Shown: one piece after another, positions 5,155-17,866 of the stretch
Position numbering within the stretch: the first letter of the stretch is position 1
How the letters are laid out: every line of letters starts with the position of its first letter
Source: Candidatus Nitrospira kreftii
GTDB taxonomy: Bacteria; Nitrospirota; Nitrospiria; Nitrospirales; Nitrospiraceae
NCBI GenBank assembly: GCA_014058405.1
Contig: CP047423.1
Location: 1,674,001 to 1,738,000 of the forward strand
DNA: 64,000 bases
Direction: 5' to 3'
Notes under the pieces: generated by a model
The model's input: only the letters and a program-made list of their open reading frames with translations
Told to the model about the DNA's origin: nothing
Database searches by the model: none
Translations under genes and position numbers: made by a program

Positions 5155-6669
5155 ATGGAGCCAGCACGACTGTATAGGCTGTTCTCTTCTCCTGAGTGGG
5201 AGGACCTGAATCCTGCCGAGTCCCGCGATCCCTTTCATATAACCCGTCGCCCTAAGCTGGATGCCAAGAAACAGGCGATCTGCGATCACTTCGATGCTTA
5301 TGCCGGTCGGCGTGCCTACTGGGAATGTAAAGCCGGTACCTACCACGACGAGCAGGCCCGCTATTATAAATTTCTCATACCCGAAGGGTTGCGTGTGTTG
5401 GAGATTGGATCGGGGTTGGGCAATCTCTTGGCTGCAGTGAAGCCTCTTCGCGGAGTCGGCATTGATTTAAGTCCGGAGATGGTGAAAGAAGCGGCTCGGC
5501 GACATCCTACCTTAGAATTTCGTGTCGGCGATGCGGAAACGCTGGACCTCAACGAGAACTTCGACGTCATTATTCTGGCCGATGTGGTTGGCCACTTGCT
5601 CGATGTCGAGGCTGCCCTGAAACAGATCCGCCATCTCTGTACCCCGCAGACGAGGATCATTGTGTCGTACTACAATTATCTGTGGGAACCGATTCTTCGG
5701 CTTTCAGAGAAGATGGGAATGAAGATGCCGCAACCCGAGCAGAGCTGGCTTTCACCGACCGATATCGCCAATCTTCTGCATCTGTCCGATTTCGATGTGG
5801 TAAAGGTGGAACGACGGCTGCTCTTGCCGAAACGAATTCCTGTTCTCTCTACATTCTTCAACAATGTGGTCGCTCATCTCCCGGGTCTTCGAACGCTGTG
5901 TCTCTCTCACTATGTGGTGGCGCGGCCACGGTTGCGACGACCGGAACGTCCGTACTCGACGACGATCGTCGTCCCATGCCGGAACGAGCGCGGCAACATC
6001 GATGCTGCGCTGAGAAGGATCCCGCGATTCGGGGGGCGGCAAGAGATCATTTTTGTCGACGGGCATTCGAGCGATGGGACGCCGGAGGAGATTCGGCGCG
6101 TGATGGCGTTCTATCCGGGCAAGAACATCAAGCTGCTGGTACAAGACGGAAAAGGAAAAGGCGATGCAGTGCGCAAGGGTTTCGAGGAGGCGACGGGCGA
6201 TGTGTTGATGATTCTGGACGCGGATCTGACGGTGCCGCCGGAATCGCTCCCGAAGTTTTATGAGGCCATTGCAAGTGGGAAAGGTGAATTCATCAATGGC
6301 TGCCGCCTTGTCTATCCCATGGAAGCACAGGCCATGCGTCTTCTCAATCTCATGGGCAATAAATTCTTTGGCCTTGCCTTCTCGTGGCTGTTGAACCAGC
6401 GGATCAAAGACACGCTCTGCGGGACCAAAGTCTTGTTCCGACGCGACTATGAACGATTGGCTGCGAACCGGCGGTATTTTGGAGAGTTTGACCCTTTCGG
6501 CGATTTCGACTTGTTGTTCGGGGCGTCGAAATTGAACCTGCATATTCTCGAGATCCCCGTTCGATACCATGCGCGATGCTACGGCACCACGAACATCCAG
6601 CGATTTGCCCACGGGTGGCTGTTGCTGAAAATGACGGTATACGGGTTCTTCCGCCTGAAAGCCGTGTAA
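5155..6669 (+). CDS. Fused SAM methyltransferase and family-2 glycosyltransferase
   Basis: This 504-residue protein joins two enzymes. Residues about 40-230 are a class I methyltransferase with the SAM-binding motif LEIGSGLGN (82-90) and an acidic D at the end of the second strand (VGIDLS). Residues about 268-500 are a GT-A glycosyltransferase of the dolichyl-phosphate-sugar-synthase type: TTIVVPCRNERGN, then DGHSSDGT, then DAD at 355-357 as metal/nucleotide-binding residues. No C-terminal membrane helices are seen. The acceptor is unknown; a polyprenyl-phosphate or lipid-linked sugar is a reasonable guess from the GT2 type. The stop overlaps the next methyltransferase start by one base, implying joint function. 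Confidence 0.8.
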   Translation: MEPARLYRLFSSPEWEDLNPAESRDPFHITRRPKLDAKKQAICDHFDAYAGRRAYWECKAGTYHDEQARYYKFLIPEGLRVLEIGSGLGNLLAAVKPLRGVGIDLSPEMVKEAARRHPTLEFRVGDAETLDLNENFDVIILADVVGHLLDVEAALKQIRHLCTPQTRIIVSYYNYLWEPILRLSEKMGMKMPQPEQSWLSPTDIANLLHLSDFDVVKVERRLLLPKRIPVLSTFFNNVVAHLPGLRTLCLSHYVVARPRLRRPERPYSTTIVVPCRNERGNIDAALRRIPRFGGRQEIIFVDGHSSDGTPEEIRRVMAFYPGKNIKLLVQDGKGKGDAVRKGFEEATGDVLMILDADLTVPPESLPKFYEAIASGKGEFINGCRLVYPMEAQAMRLLNLMGNKFFGLAFSWLLNQRIKDTLCGTKVLFRRDYERLAANRRYFGEFDPFGDFDLLFGASKLNLHILEIPVRYHARCYGTTNIQRFAHGWLLLKMTVYGFFRLKAV

Positions 6670-7394
6670 TGTCTCATGAGGTCATCCATCGCCATCGTGC
6701 CGTTTGGGAGCAGAAGCCTGTCCTCCGCCAGTTGTATGCAGATTGGTATCGGGCGATGGTGGCGTGGTTGGTATCTGGTCCGACGGTAGAGCTTGGCGGT
6801 GGAACCGGCAATCTAAAAGAGCATCTACCAGAAGCCTATTGTACGGATGTGGTGGTATTGCCGTGGTTGAATCTAGTCGCAGACGGGCAACGGTTGCCGT
6901 TTCGGTCTGAGTCGCTCGCCAATTTAGTGCTCTTTGACTGCTTACACCATATCGAAAACGTCACACTCTTCTTCGATGAGGCCCAGCGAACTCTCCGAGT
7001 GGGCGGGAGGATCATCATCATGGACCCCTATCTCTCGTGGTTCTCATGGCCGATTTACCGGTGGTTCCATCCGGAGCCGGTGGATTATACGGAAGATCCG
7101 CTCTATGCCAAGCCGCCTCAGGCCGGCCGTCGACCGTTCGATGCCAATCAAGCTGTTGCCACGATCTTATTCGAACGTAATCGAGCTGGTTTCCAGGTCC
7201 GATATCCAGGGTTTTCTATACGACATATGCGGCGAATGGCCTGTGCCGCATACCCGCTGAGTGGAGGTTTCGACCATCCGTCTCTGTTGCCGCAGTGGTT
7301 GTTGACGCCGATGCTCCGGTTGGAACATCAGCTGGAGCGGTTGGGCCGTTTTTTCGCTTTCCGTATGCTTGTCGTCATTGAGCGTCGAGTCTGA
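6669..7394 (+). CDS. Class I SAM-dependent methyltransferase
   Basis: This 241-residue protein shows the SAM-binding motif VELGGGTGN near residue 40, then a core with LVLFDCLHHIEN (motif IV region) and LRVGGRIIIMDPY, typical of small-molecule or lipid methyltransferases (Methyltransf_11 type). The ATG at 6669 overlaps the TAA of the preceding fusion gene, which suggests translational coupling and a shared pathway, perhaps glycolipid or surface-glycan modification. The substrate cannot be read from the sequence. Confidence 0.8.
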   Translation: MSHEVIHRHRAVWEQKPVLRQLYADWYRAMVAWLVSGPTVELGGGTGNLKEHLPEAYCTDVVVLPWLNLVADGQRLPFRSESLANLVLFDCLHHIENVTLFFDEAQRTLRVGGRIIIMDPYLSWFSWPIYRWFHPEPVDYTEDPLYAKPPQAGRRPFDANQAVATILFERNRAGFQVRYPGFSIRHMRRMACAAYPLSGGFDHPSLLPQWLLTPMLRLEHQLERLGRFFAFRMLVVIERRV

Positions 7395-11271: not shown

Positions 11272-11301
11272 TTGACAAATTTTGCGACTCTCTCCTATTG
11301 T
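11272..11301 (+). promoter_or_regulatory. Promoter of the first cobalamin riboswitch unit
   Basis: A perfect TTGACA at 11272-11277 is followed after 18 bases by TATTGT at 11296-11301 (5 of 6). Transcription would begin just before the riboswitch aptamer. Confidence 0.6.
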
Positions 11302-11530
11302 GCTGGCCATTGTGACTCCTGAGTAAGGGAAGAGGGTGGAAAGCCCTCGTGGTCCCGCCGCTGTAAATGGGGACGAAACCCGTAAAGACCACTGGCGTGG
11401 GCGTGAAGCGTCGTTCGTGAATCGTGAAGCGCTTGCAGTTTGACGCGAGATACGCTTCACGAGATACGCTTCACGTATATGCTGGGAAGGCTCGGGGAGT
11501 AGGGTGAACCATGAGCCAGAAGACCTGCTC
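11300..11530 (+). ncRNA. Cobalamin riboswitch 1 (upstream of btuF)
   Basis: The conserved core of a cobalamin aptamer is visible in order: AAGGGAA near 11325, GGTGGAAAGCC, the CCGCCGCTGTAA box, CCACTGG, then TGGGAAGG, and the closing GCCAGAAGACCTGC box ending near 11528. It should bind adenosylcobalamin or a related corrinoid and lower expression of btuFCD. Between the CCACTGG and TGGGAAGG boxes lies a long arm made of nested inverted repeats (11402-11475). End positions are estimated from the conserved boxes, not from a covariance model. Confidence 0.9.
11402..11475 (+). repeat. Nested inverted repeats inside riboswitch 1
   Basis: CGTGAAGCGT (11402-11411) and a second CGTGAAGCG near 11423 are mirrored by ACGCTTCACG at 11452-11461 and again at 11466-11475. 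They form a double nested stem in a variable arm of the aptamer. Closely related repeats occupy the same arm of the second riboswitch (15670-15740). Confidence 0.8.
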
Positions 11531-11591
11531 AGAGAGGGTGATCTTTGTTCCCTCGAGGCTGGGGAGCAGGTGAGGATGAAGCAGCGGGTGC

Positions 11592-11627
11592 AATCCTCAG
11601 GGTCTATCCAGGCCTTGAGGATTTTTT
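11592..11627 (+). terminator. Hairpin with T-run: expression platform of riboswitch 1
   Basis: AATCCTCA (11592-11599) pairs perfectly with TGAGGATT (11616-11623), extended by GG/CC pairs, and the 3' arm runs into TTTTTTA. This looks like a Rho-independent terminator. Its 3' arm also contains GAGG, positioned as a ribosome binding site for the TTG at 11630, so the same hairpin could block translation. Confidence 0.7.
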
Positions 11628-11629
11628 AT

Positions 11630-12637
11630 TTGAGTCAAAGGGAGCGATACCTTTTCGTCAGCGCACTGAGCCTTGTGGCTGCGCTGCTGATGCTTCTTTC
11701 GTCAGCTGATGGGTGTACCGGAGATGGGTGCAGTGAGATGAAGCGGAGGCAACCAGGAATTCTTACAGGCATGCCCTTTATGGCGCATGTGTCGTCGCGG
11801 GCTTTTGTCGATGATGCGGGGCGCAGGATCTACCTTGCCAAGCCGCCCGCTCGCATCGTGTCGCTCGCTCCGAGCATTACCGAGATGCTGTTTGCGATCG
11901 GGCTGGATGAACAGATCGTCGGCGTGACCGAGTTTTGTGACTATCCGGCGGCGGCGAAGTCCAAACCCAAGGTCGGATATTCGAACCCGAGTGCAGAAGC
12001 CTTGATCGCCCTCCGGCCGGAATTAGTCCTGGCGCCCAGAGACTTTCTCCGCCCGGATCTGCAGGCTAAACTCGAGCAGCTAAAAATTCCGCTTTTCGTT
12101 CTCGAAGCTCAAACAGTGGAAGATATCCTGCTTCAAATTCACACATTGGGAAAAATGTTTGAGAAAGCGTCGGCCGCCAATGAAGTAACTCAACGCATGC
12201 GGCAACGCATCGCAGGGATTCGGCGCAAAGTCGAAACGCCGCCGGCGCGGCGGGTGCTGTATGTCCTGAATAGCCAGCCGTTGATTACCGTGGGACCGGG
12301 AAGTTTCATCCACCAGATGATCGGCCTCGCGGGAGGGATCAATATTGCCGCGCGGGCCGGCATGGCCTATCCGAAACTGAGTATGGAAGCGGTGCTGAAG
12401 GACGATCCGGAGGTGCTGATCTTTCCTAGTGGCGAAGTGGAAACAGTGCCGCGTAGCGAGCAACAACAATGGCGGCGCTGGGATTCTCTCTCGGCCGTCA
12501 AGAAGCAGCGCTTTCACGAAGTCTCCTCGAATCTGTTGAATCGCCCAGGTCCACGAGTCGTCGAGGCCTTGGAACAACTCGCCCATGCCATCCATCCGGA
12601 ACTGTTTGGTCCCGGTGAAGATGTCGTTCATCCATGA
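11630..12637 (+). CDS. btuF: Corrinoid ABC transporter substrate-binding protein (BtuF-like)
   Basis: This periplasmic or lipid-anchored binding protein of about 335 residues captures cobalamin or cobinamide and delivers it to BtuCD. It contains the family signature RIVSLAPSITEMLFAIGLDEQ, then VGYSNPSAEALIALRPELVLA, and a second lobe with LITVGPGSFIHQMIGLAGG. The start is uncertain. TTG 11630 lies after the riboswitch hairpin and gives a clean signal peptide (MSQRERYLFVSALSLVAALL) with a Cys that could be lipidated. An ATG at 11576 or GTG at 11504 would place the hairpin, or the aptamer core, inside the coding region. Confidence 0.85.
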   Translation: MSQRERYLFVSALSLVAALLMLLSSADGCTGDGCSEMKRRQPGILTGMPFMAHVSSRAFVDDAGRRIYLAKPPARIVSLAPSITEMLFAIGLDEQIVGVTEFCDYPAAAKSKPKVGYSNPSAEALIALRPELVLAPRDFLRPDLQAKLEQLKIPLFVLEAQTVEDILLQIHTLGKMFEKASAANEVTQRMRQRIAGIRRKVETPPARRVLYVLNSQPLITVGPGSFIHQMIGLAGGINIAARAGMAYPKLSMEAVLKDDPEVLIFPSGEVETVPRSEQQQWRRWDSLSAVKKQRFHEVSSNLLNRPGPRVVEALEQLAHAIHPELFGPGEDVVHP

Positions 12638-13787
12638 GGATCCTTTGAAGCCGCTGCCTGCCCCGGTTCAGTCTGGATCGTGTCCCGGAGTACTACCCAA
12701 CGAATCTTTTTGTGTGTACTCAGCAAGCGGCATTGTTGCTCAAGGCGCTATCCTCACCAATTCACGCTGGATGGCGACGATGGGAGTTCTTGCTCTTACG
12801 GCGATAGCCGTCAGCTTTGCCTGTCTTCGCTTCGGCGCACAACCGATTGCGTATGCCGAGATCCTGCGCGTATTTCTTGACGTGCTTAGCCACAAGGAAA
12901 TTGATGGTGGGACATTGGATGTCTCGACAACCATTCTCCTGCAGGTCCGACTACCAAGAATGCTGCTGGGTTTTTTCGTCGGGTGTTCACTGGCTACGGT
13001 GGGAGTTGCCTTGCAGGCGCTACTACGGAACCCGTTGGCTGATCCCTATGTTCTTGGCGTCTCTAGTGGAGCCGCACTTGGAGCCGCAGTAGGGGTCTTG
13101 CTCGGAGCAGGCACCACATTTTTGGCGGAAACCGCGTTGCCGGCATACGGGTTTGCCGGAGGCCTCCTGGCGTTAGTGGTTGTCTATCGAATGGCCGCCA
13201 GCTATGAGCAGTTGCCGATCCATAGTCTGTTGCTGACTGGGGTGATTCTAAACGCCATCTTTTCAGCTTTGATTATGTTTATTACCTCGATCCTGGAGCC
13301 GAATCGTTCGTACGGGATGATGGCCTGGTTGATGGGCACGTTGACCGCTCCCACATACGGTGGCCTGGCCGGGCTCGCCGTCTATCTTTCGATCGGCCTA
13401 TTTCTTCTGTTCAGCCAAATGCGGGTTCTCAACATCTTGGCGTTGGGAGAAGATTCTGCTCGCACTCTGGGAATCGATACGGAAAGGGCGAAGCGGTTCA
13501 TCTTTGTGTTAACGGCGTTGGTGACCGGCGCGGTCGTGTCCGTCAGCGGCATGATCGGATTTGTCGGCATGGTTGTTCCCCACGCCGTGCGGTTGGTCAC
13601 AGGCGCGGACCATCGGCTGCTTCTTCCCGCGTCAGCTCTGGTCGGTGGCACCTTTCTTATGGGCGCCGATACGCTTGCGCGGACGTTGATATCGCCCGCA
13701 GAAATTCCGGTGGGCATCATTACCGCCCTGGCCGGTGGACCGTTCTTTGTGTATCTCCTGCTCTGGCGAAAGGATCGCTTGGCGTGA
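12621..13787 (+). CDS. btuC: Corrinoid ABC transporter permease (BtuC/FecCD family)
   Basis: This integral membrane subunit of about 388 residues has around ten transmembrane segments. Family hallmarks are the segment VRLPRMLLGFFVGCSLATVG, given here in part, then ALLRNPLADPYVLGVSSGAALGA, the coupling-helix region LALGEDSARTLGI, and GFVGMVVPHAVRLV. A roughly 50-residue N-terminal extension precedes the first membrane segment, which is longer than usual; translation could begin further in. It overlaps btuF by 17 bases and btuD by 4, consistent with a stoichiometric complex. Confidence 0.92.
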   Translation: MSFIHEDPLKPLPAPVQSGSCPGVLPNESFCVYSASGIVAQGAILTNSRWMATMGVLALTAIAVSFACLRFGAQPIAYAEILRVFLDVLSHKEIDGGTLDVSTTILLQVRLPRMLLGFFVGCSLATVGVALQALLRNPLADPYVLGVSSGAALGAAVGVLLGAGTTFLAETALPAYGFAGGLLALVVVYRMAASYEQLPIHSLLLTGVILNAIFSALIMFITSILEPNRSYGMMAWLMGTLTAPTYGGLAGLAVYLSIGLFLLFSQMRVLNILALGEDSARTLGIDTERAKRFIFVLTALVTGAVVSVSGMIGFVGMVVPHAVRLVTGADHRLLLPASALVGGTFLMGADTLARTLISPAEIPVGIITALAGGPFFVYLLLWRKDRLA

Positions 13788-14686
13788 GTGAGGTGTCCGA
13801 CAGCCGATCGAAGCAAGAAGCCTTTGCCGGCTCAGTCGACGTCATCGACCCATATCCGGCGTACGACGTGCAGGCCGTTCGGTTCCGCTACCAGTCCAAG
13901 GGATCGGATGCCATCAGGTGGATCCTTGAGGATGTCTCCTTTTCCGTTCGAGCGGGTGAAGTGCTGGGTGTCGTCGGCCCCAATGGGTCTGGAAAAACCT
14001 CCTTGCTAAAAGTGCTGGCGCGGCTCATGAGTCCGCTGCAAGGTCGCATCGCCTTGTTCGGACAGGAGTTAGCCTCTATGGCTCAGCAAGAGGTTGCCTG
14101 TGTCGTAGGAGTCGTGCCGCAAGATACCCAACAGCTCTTTCCGTTTACCGTGGCAGAAACCGTTCTCATGGGGCGGTTTCCTCATCGGCCTCGCGGCCGA
14201 TGGACCAGCGGATTCGGATGGGAAAGTCGAGAAGACGTGGCTATTGTTGAAGAAGCAATGATGACGGTGGATATCATCCACGTGGCTCATCGTGCCGTCA
14301 CGGATCTTTCCGGTGGCGAGCGACAGCGCGCCATGATTGCACGGGCGCTTGCGCAGACACCGAGAGTCTTGTTGCTCGATGAGCCGACTGCGTTCCTCGA
14401 TCTGCAGCATCAGGTTGAAATCTGTTCGGTGTTGGTCCGGCTCAAAGAGGAACGCCGATTAACCGTTGTTCTCGTGTCACATGATTTAAATCTCGTCAGC
14501 CAGTATTGCGACCGCATTTTGTTGCTGGATCGCGGTCAGGTGGTACGGCTGGGCCGCCCAGAAGACGTGATTGAACCGGAAGTCTTGGAGTCGGTGTATC
14601 GGTGCCGAGTGTTGGTGGATCGGCATCCGGGAACCGGGTTGCCCCGGGTGACGCTTCCTGGACGTTCTCTATCGGGAGGAACGTGA
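13784..14686 (+). CDS. btuD: Corrinoid ABC transporter ATPase
   Basis: The 300-residue ATPase energises the BtuC permease. Walker A is GPNGSGKT (65-72), the signature is LSGGERQR (near 179), Walker B is RVLLLDEP and the H-loop is VVLVSHDLN. The GTG start overlaps the btuC stop (GTGA). The N-terminus has about 30 extra residues before the nucleotide-binding fold, and the C-terminus has the short regulatory tail seen in FecE/BtuD-type ATPases. Confidence 0.93.
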   Translation: MSEVSDSRSKQEAFAGSVDVIDPYPAYDVQAVRFRYQSKGSDAIRWILEDVSFSVRAGEVLGVVGPNGSGKTSLLKVLARLMSPLQGRIALFGQELASMAQQEVACVVGVVPQDTQQLFPFTVAETVLMGRFPHRPRGRWTSGFGWESREDVAIVEEAMMTVDIIHVAHRAVTDLSGGERQRAMIARALAQTPRVLLLDEPTAFLDLQHQVEICSVLVRLKEERRLTVVLVSHDLNLVSQYCDRILLLDRGQVVRLGRPEDVIEPEVLESVYRCRVLVDRHPGTGLPRVTLPGRSLSGGT

Positions 14687-14687
14687 T

Positions 14688-15458
14688 ATGAGAGTGGGCA
14701 AGATCGCGCTGCTTCATCTTGAGACCGTTCCTGGAGCCATCGAGCGGAACCGGTATGTGATTGTCGAGGCCATCAAGCACGCCGCGGGAACAGGTGCCGA
14801 GTGGATCGTGACACCGGAGCTTGCGGTGTGCGGACTACAGTTTGCCCACGTGGTCGGCTCGGAGTGGATACAGCCGCAACCCGACCCATGGATGCAACAG
14901 GTCTGCAAACTGGTCAAGGCTTTGAAGCGAACCGTCTTTCTTGCCTGCCCGGAGCGGGAGGGAGGTCGGTGCTATAACTCGGTGTTTGTTATCGGTCCGA
15001 CCGGTGACATTTTGGGGAAACATCGCAAGATCAATGTGGTGAGCGATTCACTGGCATGGTCGAGCCCCGGCGACCGTGTCGCTCCTATCGAGTGCGATGG
15101 GATTAAGGTCGGTGTACTCATCTGTAGTGACGTCTATACATCGAATATCGCCAGAGCGCTGAGGTTCGAAGGCGCTCAGATGTTGGTGTCGCCGGCGTCG
15201 TGGGGTCCCGGCATTCACGGTCCAAATGGGGAATGGGAGCAACGGACTCATGAAACAGGGTTGCCTTTAATTGTCTGTAATCGAACCGGCGCAGAAAAGA
15301 CGTTGGACTTTTGGAAGGCCCCGAGTCTTGTTGTGAAGGAGGGCACGCGTCTGCTCGTCCACACGTCCAAGAAATCTGCCGTGCTGACGTTTACATGGGA
15401 TTTCGAAGGCATGGCGCTGCGCTCTTCACGATATATGATCGATTACATCCGGAACTAA
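14688..15458 (+). CDS. Carbon-nitrogen hydrolase (nitrilase superfamily)
   Basis: This 256-residue enzyme has the complete nitrilase catalytic triad: Glu44 (TPELAV), Lys114 (GKHRKINV) and Cys146 (VGVLICSDVY). Such enzymes cleave non-peptide C-N bonds in amides or nitriles. It begins two bases after btuD stops, so it is almost certainly co-transcribed with the corrinoid transporter under riboswitch 1. Corrinoids carry amide side chains and an upper cyano ligand in cyanocobalamin, so a corrinoid-related substrate is conceivable, but nothing in the sequence proves it. Confidence 0.85.
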   Translation: MRVGKIALLHLETVPGAIERNRYVIVEAIKHAAGTGAEWIVTPELAVCGLQFAHVVGSEWIQPQPDPWMQQVCKLVKALKRTVFLACPEREGGRCYNSVFVIGPTGDILGKHRKINVVSDSLAWSSPGDRVAPIECDGIKVGVLICSDVYTSNIARALRFEGAQMLVSPASWGPGIHGPNGEWEQRTHETGLPLIVCNRTGAEKTLDFWKAPSLVVKEGTRLLVHTSKKSAVLTFTWDFEGMALRSSRYMIDYIRN

Positions 15459-15549
15459 TGCGCTGTCTGATTATAGTGATGCTGATGATGTGAGCAGGAA
15501 GAGTTTGCACCGCTCTCCTGCAGAAGATGTCAGGTGCGGAACAATCATT

Positions 15550-15791
15550 CTGGAGGGATCCTTTAGGTCATACCGTCAGCGACGGGGAAGATGGTGCAAA
15601 TCCATCACGGTGCCGCCACTGTAAGCGGGGAGTGACTCTGCAATGTGCCACTGTCTTAGTGGCGTGGGTCGTGAAGCGTATCTTGTGAAGCGCAAGGGAT
15701 TTCTTGCAGGCGATTCACGAAGGACGTTTCACGCTTCACGCGAAAGATGGGAAGGCGCAGAGAAGCTGTGATCCGCAAGTCAGGAGACCCA
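15550..15791 (+). ncRNA. Cobalamin riboswitch 2 (upstream of btuB and the salvage operon)
   Basis: A textbook cobalamin aptamer: ACGGGGAA near 15584, GGTGCAAATCC, CGGTGCCGCCACTGTAAGCGG, GCCACTGT, TGGGAAGGCGCAG, and GATCCGCAAGTCAGGAGACC ending at about 15790. It lies between the nitrilase gene and btuB and should repress btuB and the downstream genes when cobalamin is plentiful. As in riboswitch 1, an arm made of CGTGAAGCGT/ACGCTTCACG repeats is inserted between the GCCACTG and TGGGAAGGC boxes. Boundaries are approximate. Confidence 0.95.
15670..15740 (+). repeat. Nested inverted repeats inside riboswitch 2
   Basis: CGTGAAGCGT at 15670-15679 pairs with ACGCTTCACG at 15731-15740. An inner TGTGAAGCGC is partly mirrored by GCGATTCACGA. 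The unit is related in sequence, position and flanks (GGCGTGGG before it) to that in riboswitch 1. Confidence 0.8.
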
Positions 15792-15810
15792 ACTGTCGGG
15801 ATCTTCAACA

Positions 15811-15835: not shown

Positions 15836-17866
15836 ATGCGACGTGTTCGTCCGTGGTTTGTCTCTACCGGTATTCTGTTCCTACTGTGGAGCTTCTTGTT
15901 CTGCTTTCCCGTACGTGCTCAGGAAGTCGCGATGGCCGACCAGTCGGAGGTAATTCAGGCTCCCGACGTAGTGGTGAGCGCGACCAAGACCCCCATTCCG
16001 GCCAAACAAGTCACCAGCGCCGTGGAAGTGATCACCGGCGAAGAGATGCAACAGCGAAAAGTCAGAACCGTGGCGGAAGCCTTGCGCTGGGCTCAAGGAC
16101 TTTCGGTCAACCAGAGCGGAGGACTGGGCACCAGTGTTGATGTCCGGATGCGCGGAGGAACACCGGAACAAACGCTCGTGCTCATCGATGGGGCGATCGT
16201 CAACAGTGCCACAATCGGCAATTACGACTTTGCCAACCTCACATCCGACAACATCGAACGGATTGAAATCTTACGAGGGAGTCAGAGCATGCTCTGGGGG
16301 TCGGATGCGATGGGGGGCGTGATTAATATTACGACGAAGCGAGGACGGGACAAACCCAATGTGTCCGCGTTCGCCGAGTACGGTTCGTTTAATACCATTC
16401 GTGAAGGAGCCAGTCTATCGGGGAAGAAGGGGCCCATAGATTTCTCCGGTTCGATCACTCGCTTGGATACGGCCGGTTTTTCGGCGATCAATTATCGGCG
16501 TGGCGCAACGGAGCGCGATGGATATCACAACTGGCAAGGATCGGTTCGGCTAGGAGCTGATCTCCCCAAAGATGGACGCCTGGAGTTTAGCTTTCGATGG
16601 TTGCGGGGCAGCGTGAGTTTCGATGGATTTGCGTTTAACTCGGTTACTTTTGCCTCTGAGCCAGCTGATGTGTTTGGTGCGCGATCTCGAAATTCGCAAT
16701 ATATCTTCGCGGGAAACTATTCACAACCCATCACGACTTGGTGGTCACAACAGCTCACCGTATCGAGAGCGACTGAATCTCTTGTCAGTTATGGAGGAAC
16801 CATCGAGCAAAATGTGGTGACCGGAGCGACAGGACCGCTCGGTTTTCCGTTCAGTTCGCAGATCGAGACCACCAGTAATCGGCTGGAATGGCAGCACAAC
16901 ATTCAAGTTGGTAAGCCTTTGTTGCTGACGGGGGGATATCAATTTCGTGAGCAGAAAGGCGATAACACCGATGTGTTGCTTCAGGCGCCTGCGTTTTCGA
17001 ACAAGGCCCTCAGTAGCCATGGTGGATTCGGTGAGGCTCAACTAAATCTCTGGGATCGTCTGTTTGCAACTGCCGGCGTTCGGCAGGATGAATACAATGT
17101 TTTCGGAAGCGCTACGACGTATCGAGTGACCGGCGGGTATTTGGTCAAAGAAACTGGTACGAAGTTACGCGGGAGCTATTCAACCGGCTTTCGGGCTCCG
17201 ACGATCAACCAGCTGTTCTTTCCCAATTTCGGCAACCCTAATTTGAAGCCAGAGAGAAGCCAGGGATTGGACGCGGCCATCGAACAAACGCTGCCGAATG
17301 ATCGAGGGACCATCAGTGTGGGGTATTTCTGGACACGATATCGGGACCTCATTCTTTCTGCTCAAGATCCCATCGCTTGCGGAATCGGACCGTTTGGAGC
17401 CAACTTCTGTGCTCTGAACGTCGGTCTTGCCACCGCACGAGGCTTCGAAGCAACCGTCAAATTGCATGTGTATCGCGACCAACCTTGGGCCAAAAGCCTC
17501 GATTTGCTGGTTCACTATACGTACACGGATACGGAAAACTTTCAAAATGGCCAGGCCACACGTGTTCCCAAATGGCCGCTTAACCAATGGTCAGCCATTC
17601 TCAGCTATCAACCGATCGAGGCATTGCGAGGTAATCTGGAAGGGCGATATATCGGAGAACGGTTTAACAATGTTGGGAACAGTAATCCGATCCCGTCTTT
17701 TCTCGTCTGGAATGTGTCAGCCAGCTATGACGTGACGAAGTATATGCAGGCCTACATCCGTTTTGACAACATCTTCAATGAGAAATACGAGGAAATTTTG
17801 TTTCTCGGCACACCGATCCGGTCGATTTTCGGCGGCGTGCGAATCAATTATGATCTTCCGATCTAG
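15836..17866 (+). CDS. btuB: TonB-dependent corrinoid receptor (BtuB-like)
   Basis: This 676-residue outer-membrane receptor imports corrinoids using TonB energy. It has a signal peptide (residues 1-28, ending FPVRAQ), a plug domain beginning with DVVVSATKTPIPAKQVTSAV and containing VDVRMRGGTPEQTLVLIDG and GSQSMLWGSDAMGGVINITT, and a long beta-barrel ending in FGGVRINYDLP. The ATG at 15836 follows a strong GGGAGG site; upstream in-frame codons lie inside the riboswitch. Control by a cobalamin riboswitch supports a corrinoid substrate. It is followed without a gap by the cobB relic. Confidence 0.92.
   Translation: MRRVRPWFVSTGILFLLWSFLFCFPVRAQEVAMADQSEVIQAPDVVVSATKTPIPAKQVTSAVEVITGEEMQQRKVRTVAEALRWAQGLSVNQSGGLGTSVDVRMRGGTPEQTLVLIDGAIVNSATIGNYDFANLTSDNIERIEILRGSQSMLWGSDAMGGVINITTKRGRDKPNVSAFAEYGSFNTIREGASLSGKKGPIDFSGSITRLDTAGFSAINYRRGATERDGYHNWQGSVRLGADLPKDGRLEFSFRWLRGSVSFDGFAFNSVTFASEPADVFGARSRNSQYIFAGNYSQPITTWWSQQLTVSRATESLVSYGGTIEQNVVTGATGPLGFPFSSQIETTSNRLEWQHNIQVGKPLLLTGGYQFREQKGDNTDVLLQAPAFSNKALSSHGGFGEAQLNLWDRLFATAGVRQDEYNVFGSATTYRVTGGYLVKETGTKLRGSYSTGFRAPTINQLFFPNFGNPNLKPERSQGLDAAIEQTLPNDRGTISVGYFWTRYRDLILSAQDPIACGIGPFGANFCALNVGLATARGFEATVKLHVYRDQPWAKSLDLLVHYTYTDTENFQNGQATRVPKWPLNQWSAILSYQPIEALRGNLEGRYIGERFNNVGNSNPIPSFLVWNVSASYDVTKYMQAYIRFDNIFNEKYEEILFLGTPIRSIFGGVRINYDLPI

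Follow-up and report, generated by a model that had tools for sequence, protein, structure and literature searches.

Two cobalamin riboswitches with long hairpin arms

The window analysed here is a stretch of 64,000 nucleotides (nt) of the genome of Candidatus Nitrospira kreftii (contig CP047423.1, positions 1,674,001 to 1,738,000). It contains two cobalamin riboswitches, and the variable arm of each one of them carries a long hairpin built from tandem 7-nt words (heptads). Both aptamers scored above the gathering threshold of RF00174 (31.5 bits) and matched positions 1-189 of the model in full. By the covariance model they are genuine cobalamin riboswitches, and it is the gene context that suggests that they bind a corrinoid and control the genes downstream. 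The features of the two riboswitches, numbered from the first letter of the window, were the following:

11279..11546, + strand: cobalamin riboswitch aptamer 1, 5' of the btuF-like gene (RF00174, 79.7 bits, E 5.5e-18)
11389..11394, + strand: CCACTG box, 5' edge of arm 1 (read from the sequence; conserved in relatives)
11395..11482, + strand: arm 1, 88-nt heptad-repeat hairpin (fold z -5.24 for 11386-11490; lag 7 best)
11402..11429, + strand: arm 1, 5' side, CGTGAAG CGTCGTT CGTGAAT CGTGAAG (array list)
11448..11475, - strand: arm 1, 3' side, minus-strand reading CGTGAAG CGTATCT CGTGAAG CGTATCT (array list)
11483..11490, + strand: TGGGAAGG box, 3' edge of arm 1 (read from the sequence; conserved)
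15548..15810, + strand: cobalamin riboswitch aptamer 2, 5' of the TonB-dependent receptor gene (RF00174, 85.7 bits, E 1.1e-19)
15654..15747, + strand: arm 2, 94-nt heptad-repeat hairpin (fold z -5.00 for 15648-15755)
15663..15683, + strand: arm 2, 5' side, CGTGGGT CGTGAAG CGTATCT (array list)
15713..15740, - strand: arm 2, 3' side, minus-strand reading CGTGAAG CGTGAAA CGTCCTT CGTGAAT (array list)

Arms 1 and 2 both sit between CCACTG and TGGGAAGG, corroborating an initial annotation that had placed repeats in the same variable arm of both aptamers. In arm 1 the decamer pair described there, CGTGAAGCGT / ACGCTTCACG, occupied 11402-11411 together with 11452-11461 and 11466-11475; in arm 2 it occupied 15670-15679 and 15731-15740. 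The Rfam alignment had 81 and 86 positions in the arm stretch, versus 5 and 4 in the family. RNA folding of both arms was about 5 standard deviations better than that of dinucleotide shuffles, none of 200 shuffles being as good, in agreement with the nested palindrome that had been proposed. The two copies were 60.6% identical and differed inside the arm, as had also been noticed. A large P6 extension has been described in a B12 riboswitch, outside the P3-P6 four-way junction that holds the ligand (PMC11260477), and by analogy the arms of the window may belong to an extension of this kind.

Downstream of aptamer 1 come a btuF-btuC-btuD-like row and the gene of a carbon-nitrogen hydrolase, and downstream of aptamer 2 the gene of a TonB-dependent receptor; the btu names were assigned from context. 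The btuF-C-D and TonB receptor genes were found in the same order in most of 39 genomes, with the gene row whole or partial. Because four genes lie within 11402-15740, the feature consists of two separate arms and is not a single 4.3-kb element. The genes of the row were:

11816..12637 (start approximate), + strand: btuF-like periplasmic binding protein, putative regulated gene 1 (PF01497, 113 bits)
12585..13787 (start approximate), + strand: btuC-like permease (PF01032, 288 bits)
13784..14686, + strand: btuD-like ABC ATPase (PF00005, 123 bits)
14688..15458, + strand: carbon-nitrogen hydrolase family protein, same gene row (PF00795, 94 bits)
15836..17866 (start approximate), + strand: TonB-dependent receptor, btuB-like, putative regulated gene 2 (PF00593 and PF07715)

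Period of the repeats

The unit of the arms was the 7-nt word CGTNNNN, arranged in tandem on each side and paired word to word. The decamer was rejected as the repeat unit and replaced through a lag scan, as it corresponds to one and a half words (CGTGAAG CGT). The similar flanks of the two arms had also been pointed out, and GGCGTGGG was indeed present, but in arm 2 it is the word CGTGGGT of the same array and not a separate flank.

The lag scan covered 66 riboswitches from the own genome, the genus and the order, with the letters shuffled within half-arms. Lag 7 was the best of lags 3-13 in all 31 riboswitches with arms of at least 60 nt, which come from related species and hence are not 31 independent cases. 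The pooled match was 0.44 at lag 7 (z 19.7) and 0.46 at lag 14 (z 19.8), with z below zero at all other lags from 2 to 15. The eight arms made of AGC or GTGA words gave by themselves a z of 10.4 at lag 7. Period 7 holds across unrelated words, and a single period for all the word families would call for a process with a 7-nt step.

In the pairs of arms that could be aligned with a single gap (n = 14), the gap was 7 nt in nine, 1 nt in four and 2 nt in one. We read the nine 7-nt gaps as probably about three events: a 5'-side event in G032, a 3'-side event shared by G007 and G029, and an event near the loop in the comparison of G027 with G006 and G011. Here G-numbers denote the compared genomes and G000 that of the window. 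Gaps of 7 nt explained part, not all, of the differences in arm length.

Arms of closely related riboswitches

Arms were read in relatives by the pattern CCACT / GGGAAGG. The btuF riboswitches of G006 and G032, missed by the pattern, were read separately; the tonB arms of G016 and G024, both short, were missed as well. The tonB arm alone was read in G031, and riboswitches outside the gene row in G001, G003, G008, G018, G025 and G029 were left out. Core identities refer to the 120 nt (5' core) and the 75 nt (3' core) flanking the arm. A quick-method tree was built with 37 rows, omitting G009 and G023 (short genes); since 11 of its 34 inner branches were weak, pair comparisons were used and gains were not counted.

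The arms behaved as cassettes, most cleanly so in four relatives: the tonB riboswitches of G006, G011, G027 and G032 had as arms a CGT heptad hairpin, an AGC heptad hairpin, another AGC heptad hairpin and a 14-nt loop, respectively, although their TonB proteins were 94.4-97.2% identical over the parts compared and their cores 90.8-94.2% (5') and 93.3-98.7% (3') identical. Between G000 and G013 the tonB cores were 92.5/98.7% identical with arms of 94 versus 14 nt, and the btuF cores were 95.8/98.7% identical with arms only 63.6% identical. Similar arms were also found next to divergent genes, as between G006 and G034 for tonB (arms 96.8%, TonB 57.5% identical) and between G000 and G005 for btuF (arms 85.2%, BtuF 59.5% identical). 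The leaders of G000 were nearest those of G013 (92.5-98.7%) though BtuF was 82% identical.

The arm 1 type was present in G003, G005 and G021 (79.5-85.2% identity) and, by alignment, in G032. Arm 2 was 88-89% identical to the tonB riboswitch arms of G006 and G034, and 87 nt of it matched a sequence in G070 at 95%. A named Nitrospira record (L213), inspected by eye, had the same btuF arm type, and its second arm between CCACTG and TGGGAAGG belonged to another word family (CGTCAGT CGTCAAC CGTCACT).

A shared ancestral arm had been offered in the initial annotation as one origin of the two copies. Some species groups do share an orthologous arm, as G007, G013, G019, G020 and G029 (78-92% identity), which is what vertical inheritance with drift would produce. 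For the copies in the window this proposal failed, because they resemble arms of other species at the same riboswitch (about 80-90%) much more than each other. The history of arm and core was also in conflict, since the btuF core of G000 was nearest G013 whereas its arm was nearest G005, G021 and G003. We regard vertical inheritance of an ancestral arm as highly improbable.

Dispersal of the words in the genome and the genus

A genome-wide count of the decamer, proposed in that annotation as a check, gave 49+45 = 94 copies of CGTGAAGCGT versus 2+4 = 6 for the reversed pattern, and three CGTNNNN words followed by CGT occurred 30+29 times in the own genome versus 1+0 in the control. For the nonamer CGTGAAGCG, allowing at most one mismatch, the 64-kb window showed no excess (27 versus 20.6 expected, with 16 of 100 shuffles as high), so the excess of the decamer type is visible genome-wide only.

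Neighbouring arrays (66 arrays in the own DNA) faced each other as in a hairpin in 15 cases, lay in the opposite sense in one and on the same strand in one. The four bases following CGT were GAAG in 83, ATCT in 27, CGTT in 22 and GAAA in 17 of 251 words, with 62 distinct combinations; because the decamer had served as bait for the DNA that contains these arrays, the counts favour CGTGAAG. Arrays were depleted in open reading frames (ORFs), 19 of 50 loci lying in an ORF of at least 200 amino acids (aa) versus 74% of random positions in the same DNA. Of the 58 own-genome heptad loci, 20 (68.8 kb) were compared with Rfam, and none of these gave a match at gathering threshold.

CGT arrays were detected in 57 of 59 genomes of the genus, from 0 to 194 per genome and 1986 in total versus 92 in the control, and 39 of the 59 had at least 10 arrays and at least five times their own control. 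AGC and GTGA heptads were likewise common in the genus, with the reversed AGC control equal or higher in some genomes. A host scan with a pattern of 19 fixed bases gave at least 119 stretches, and the 80 loci described among the matches listed belonged to Nitrospirota (45), Chloroflexota (9) and other phyla. The loci of the window's own genome aligned with Nitrospira and Nitrospirota records at 67-82% identity over 0.8-2.8 kb.

CGT heptads were denser in genomes with two long arms (7 versus 21 genomes, p 1e-4), and AGC heptads were denser in genomes with AGC arms (4 versus 28 genomes, p 0.009). Between long-arm and short-arm genomes (29 genomes) the density of CGT heptads gave p 0.013, and p 0.04 with AGC added. 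These four tests are uncorrected and ignore kinship.

The same hairpins at other sites

The best further own-genome match of arm 1 among those listed was at 2525988-2526062 of the genome (84% over 75 nt), inside cheB (2525399-2526550), where an in-frame heptad hairpin lies between the receiver domain (residues 33-135) and the methylesterase domain (residues 199-377). Of the 59 genomes searched, 30 entered the CheB table, among them that of the window, and 28 of these had both anchors. Several heptad families, or none, occupied the same place in these 28 linkers: CGTGAAG in G000 and G006, GTGAGGC/GTTAGGC in G010, G024, G023 and G032, and a GGTTTCA type in G019. Lag 7 was the best in 15 of the 28, with codon structure competing. 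Other ORF ends in the same chemotaxis-like cluster (L150:4262-4660 and 6578-7246) also look as if written in heptads (REAYLVKR and SRDTLHASR peptides), and the ORF at L150:4262-4660 may be spurious.

At an intergenic site (2373200), tabulated in 32 of the 54 genomes with a match, inserts of 59-155 nt from several word families were found in 20 genomes and stretches of 11-45 nt in the other 12; lag 7 was the best in 16 of the 20 long inserts. At this site, a GTTTCGA-type hairpin is apparently nested within CGTGAAG-like ends in G004, G023, G027 and G032. A non-heptad insert with CTGCGGGTGGC..AGCCCAGTCGCGCGCA replaces the hairpin in G013 (L332) and G007 (L348), and G021 (L357) has a tandem duplication of about 75 nt.

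RNase P RNA, which served as a negative control, had no CGT, AGC or GTGA heptads inside the match in any of the 30 loci checked; in locus L415 a heptad at 1741 was outside the match at 111-537. Of the 51 full-model RNase P matches above the cut-off, 50 spanned 421-435 nt and one (G002) 332 nt.

The copies at other sites bear on the possibility that the arms arose by growth in situ only, that is, that an old stem was expanded by 7-nt slippage and quasi-palindrome correction with no transfer between loci. This would account for the period of 7 in all the unrelated word families and for the single 7-nt gaps between related arms. It would also suit two btuF riboswitches from another family of the order, G049 with a 24-nt arm and G044 with a 95-nt heptad arm, whose cores are 92.5/94.7% identical. 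However, the same words are present at dozens of unlinked loci, and a 75-nt copy of arm 1 lies in cheB, neither of which independent slippage would produce. Growth in situ alone seems rather unlikely. The 24-nt arm of G049 retains GGACGT..ACGTC ends similar to those of G044.

Comparison with REP elements and their transposases

The initial annotation had suggested a mobile palindrome similar to repetitive extragenic palindromic (REP) elements, inserted at a place that the RNA can accommodate. A GTAG or CGTC tag is the defining mark of REPs, which frequently accompany genes of REP-associated tyrosine transposases, or RAYTs (PMC3733652); the arms could be REP elements mobilised by a RAYT. The heptad hairpins are indeed short, dispersed, high-copy palindromes (94 decamers), mostly outside ORFs (19 of 50 array loci inside), and their presence or absence varies between species, filled and short sites both being seen among relatives. 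The genome also has two Y1-transposase loci, one of them with an open frame of 285 aa, and Nitrospira moscoviensis has a row in the table of a REP survey, where the figure of 635 may stand for its REP count (PMC12306157).

The tests of the REP signature gave a different picture. The GTAG tag was found at none of 15 hairpins (0.5 expected) when the 14 nt outside the outermost CGT words were examined in a crude test, while GTGG was at 3 of the 15 flanks (1.3 expected) and an unpaired CGTC tag, that of the CGTC super-family, at 1 of 15 (1.7 expected), although CGTC does occur inside the words. The 15 paired elements spanned 64-143 nt, versus 20-40 bp published for REPs, and several unrelated word families coexist in this one genus. 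Neither of the two Y1_Tnp loci had CGT, AGC or GTGA heptads within 1.5 kb on either side. The intact Y1 (IS200-like) transposase ORF of 285 aa lies at about 1671690-1672540 of the genome, just left of the window, and its locus (3.3 kb) lacked these heptads as well as any inverted repeat of at least 10 nt.

The hairpins are REP-like in behaviour but are not REP by the published definition, and mobilisation by a RAYT is unlikely. What stood of the suggestion is that the palindromes are dispersed genome-wide, depleted in ORFs, and present, absent or swapped in near-identical riboswitches. The earlier interpretation is right in spirit, and wrong in naming REP and in linking the two copies.

Origin of the arms

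The 7-nt architecture is shared by the arms, the hairpins are dispersed and present or absent from one relative to another, and different word families occupy one site in close relatives. We consider it quite probable that both arms belong to a large class, made up of several word families, of dispersed, near-neutral heptad hairpins, here on a tolerant arm, spread by copying or recombination and reshaped by 7-nt slippage. Shared words at dozens of loci, together with unrelated families at one site, are explained by dispersal plus recombination across conserved flanks.

In this mechanism, heptad hairpins would settle where an extra helix is tolerated, as in intergenic spacers, the interdomain linker of CheB and the tip of the riboswitch variable arm. 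A new riboswitch may be reached by recombination across the conserved flanks of the aptamer or by copying from the genome pool. Slippage in 7-nt steps could then act within the sides, with strand-switch repair keeping both sides complementary. In the RNA, the hairpin would merely lengthen a helix directed away from the ligand pocket and would be nearly neutral for B12 sensing.

Several results weigh against this explanation. Neither a transposase nor a terminal signature nor a target-site duplication came to light, ends and duplications having been inspected by eye. In 20 of the 59 genomes the threshold of 10 arrays and five times the control was not reached, CGT-array counts being at or near the control in part of the genus, and G005, G014 and G021 are AGC-rich genomes without AGC arms. 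Gaps of 7 nt were 30 of 207 over all 53 listed arm pairs, most of them poorly alignable, and lag 7 was not the best in 13 of 28 CheB linkers and in 4 of 20 long intergenic inserts. Seven of the 32 genus genomes with an arm read had only short arms (10-14 nt), which fits neutrality without proving it. The leaders are mosaic too, as in G001 and G028 with btuF cores 99.2/97.3% identical and BtuF 58.6% identical, and arms common to distant species could reflect the exchange of whole leaders. Leaders seem, from these comparisons, to recombine apart from their genes, and given such mosaicism, exchange via the conserved flanks would be the simplest route for many arm swaps.

Arm covariation was not above shuffles either: two pairs had both sides changed in one arm group (A1), with 110 of 500 shuffles as high, and none in a second one (A2). 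Five related arms kept standard pairs in 96.8% of cells, versus a shuffle mean of 96.3%. Covariation at this level does not establish selection on the hairpin as RNA. A hairpin kept for aptamer stabilisation or for protein binding, the function that had initially been considered for the arm, would agree with the high proportion of standard pairs and with the long arms present in 25 of the 32 genus genomes. Against it, the tonB riboswitch of the close relatives G013 and G032 has a 14-nt arm upstream of the same gene, word families replace one another, and the same hairpins are found in spacers and in a protein linker, all of which makes a functional arm very unlikely.

Beyond the dispersal and recombination of near-neutral hairpins that we favour, an unrecognised generator in Nitrospira and its relatives might write and rewrite word-paired heptad palindromes in 7-nt steps at tolerant sites. 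The hairpins would then not form a single repeat family, and unrelated sequences would come to have one period and one fold at riboswitch tips, protein linkers and spacers alike. We propose this tentatively and hold it to be doubtful; if it were true, the riboswitch arms would be a readable record of the hairpin-writing process.

Comparison with known repeats

The riboswitches are ordinary ones that carry an unusual and instructive heptad-hairpin passenger, and a kindred hairpin is known in a Nostoc intron. A domain of a riboswitch here receives repeats: among near-identical aptamers some are short, some filled and some exchanged, and what a 60-100-nt insertion costs a sensor RNA becomes directly measurable. 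Peripheral RNA arms, intergenic palindromes and protein linkers are sites filled by one repeat class, and the bacterial preference for 7-nt repeats becomes testable in a genus with several coexisting word families. Caution is also advisable with riboswitch alignments, in which a long variable arm may represent repeats instead of a conserved function.

Searches of the full text of open-licence papers turned up no description of such hairpins, either for Nitrospira or for a riboswitch. Like REPs, the heptad hairpins are small dispersed palindromes, mostly extragenic and likely transcribed as hairpins (PMC3733652), but they lack the GTAG tag and the flanking RAYT, are longer and have an internal 7-nt period. 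Like the Rickettsia palindromic elements (RPE), they are palindromes in both protein and RNA genes, which for RPE are those of tmRNA and RNase P RNA (PMC2229807). RPE are 105-146 bp long, with no heptad repetition in the description given in that source, and here RNase P RNA was free of the three heptad families in the 30 loci.

Abundant and mostly intergenic tandem heptamers have been described as TAACTGA in Beggiatoaceae (PMC4679880) and as GGGAATC in Xanthomonas and Nostoc (PMC4692102). Heptamers are over-represented in many bacteria, and polymerase slippage, over about the length of the polymerase contact, has been proposed (PMC4679880, PMC4692102). Unlike the Nitrospira hairpins, these are, as presented in the sources, direct repeats of one main word, with inverted copies mentioned in passing. 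In Geobacter metallireducens, 4-5 tandem heptanucleotides are multicopy (GGGACCG in 49 places; MTYCTGA), and one class is drawn as the two strands of a loop (PMC2700814). These families are the nearest described in another phylum. The repeats are treated in that source as regulatory elements or regulator-binding sites, and its description includes no riboswitch arm.

The closest resemblance was to the P6b stem-loop of the Nostoc tRNA-Leu(UAA) group I intron, which contains degenerate heptanucleotide repeats in a peripheral RNA stem, paired as a hairpin, with variable copy number and more than one repeat class (PMC3488679). The Nitrospira arms also have 7-nt tandem repeats, two sides that pair in the predicted fold and length variants, some of which differ by repeat copies. 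They differ from P6b in that the host RNA is a riboswitch, usually with two per genome, in that near-identical aptamers may carry either short loops or arms of unrelated word families, and in that the words are dispersed genome-wide and even present in a protein linker. The Nostoc P6b hairpin is the nearest known system, the same idea in another RNA.

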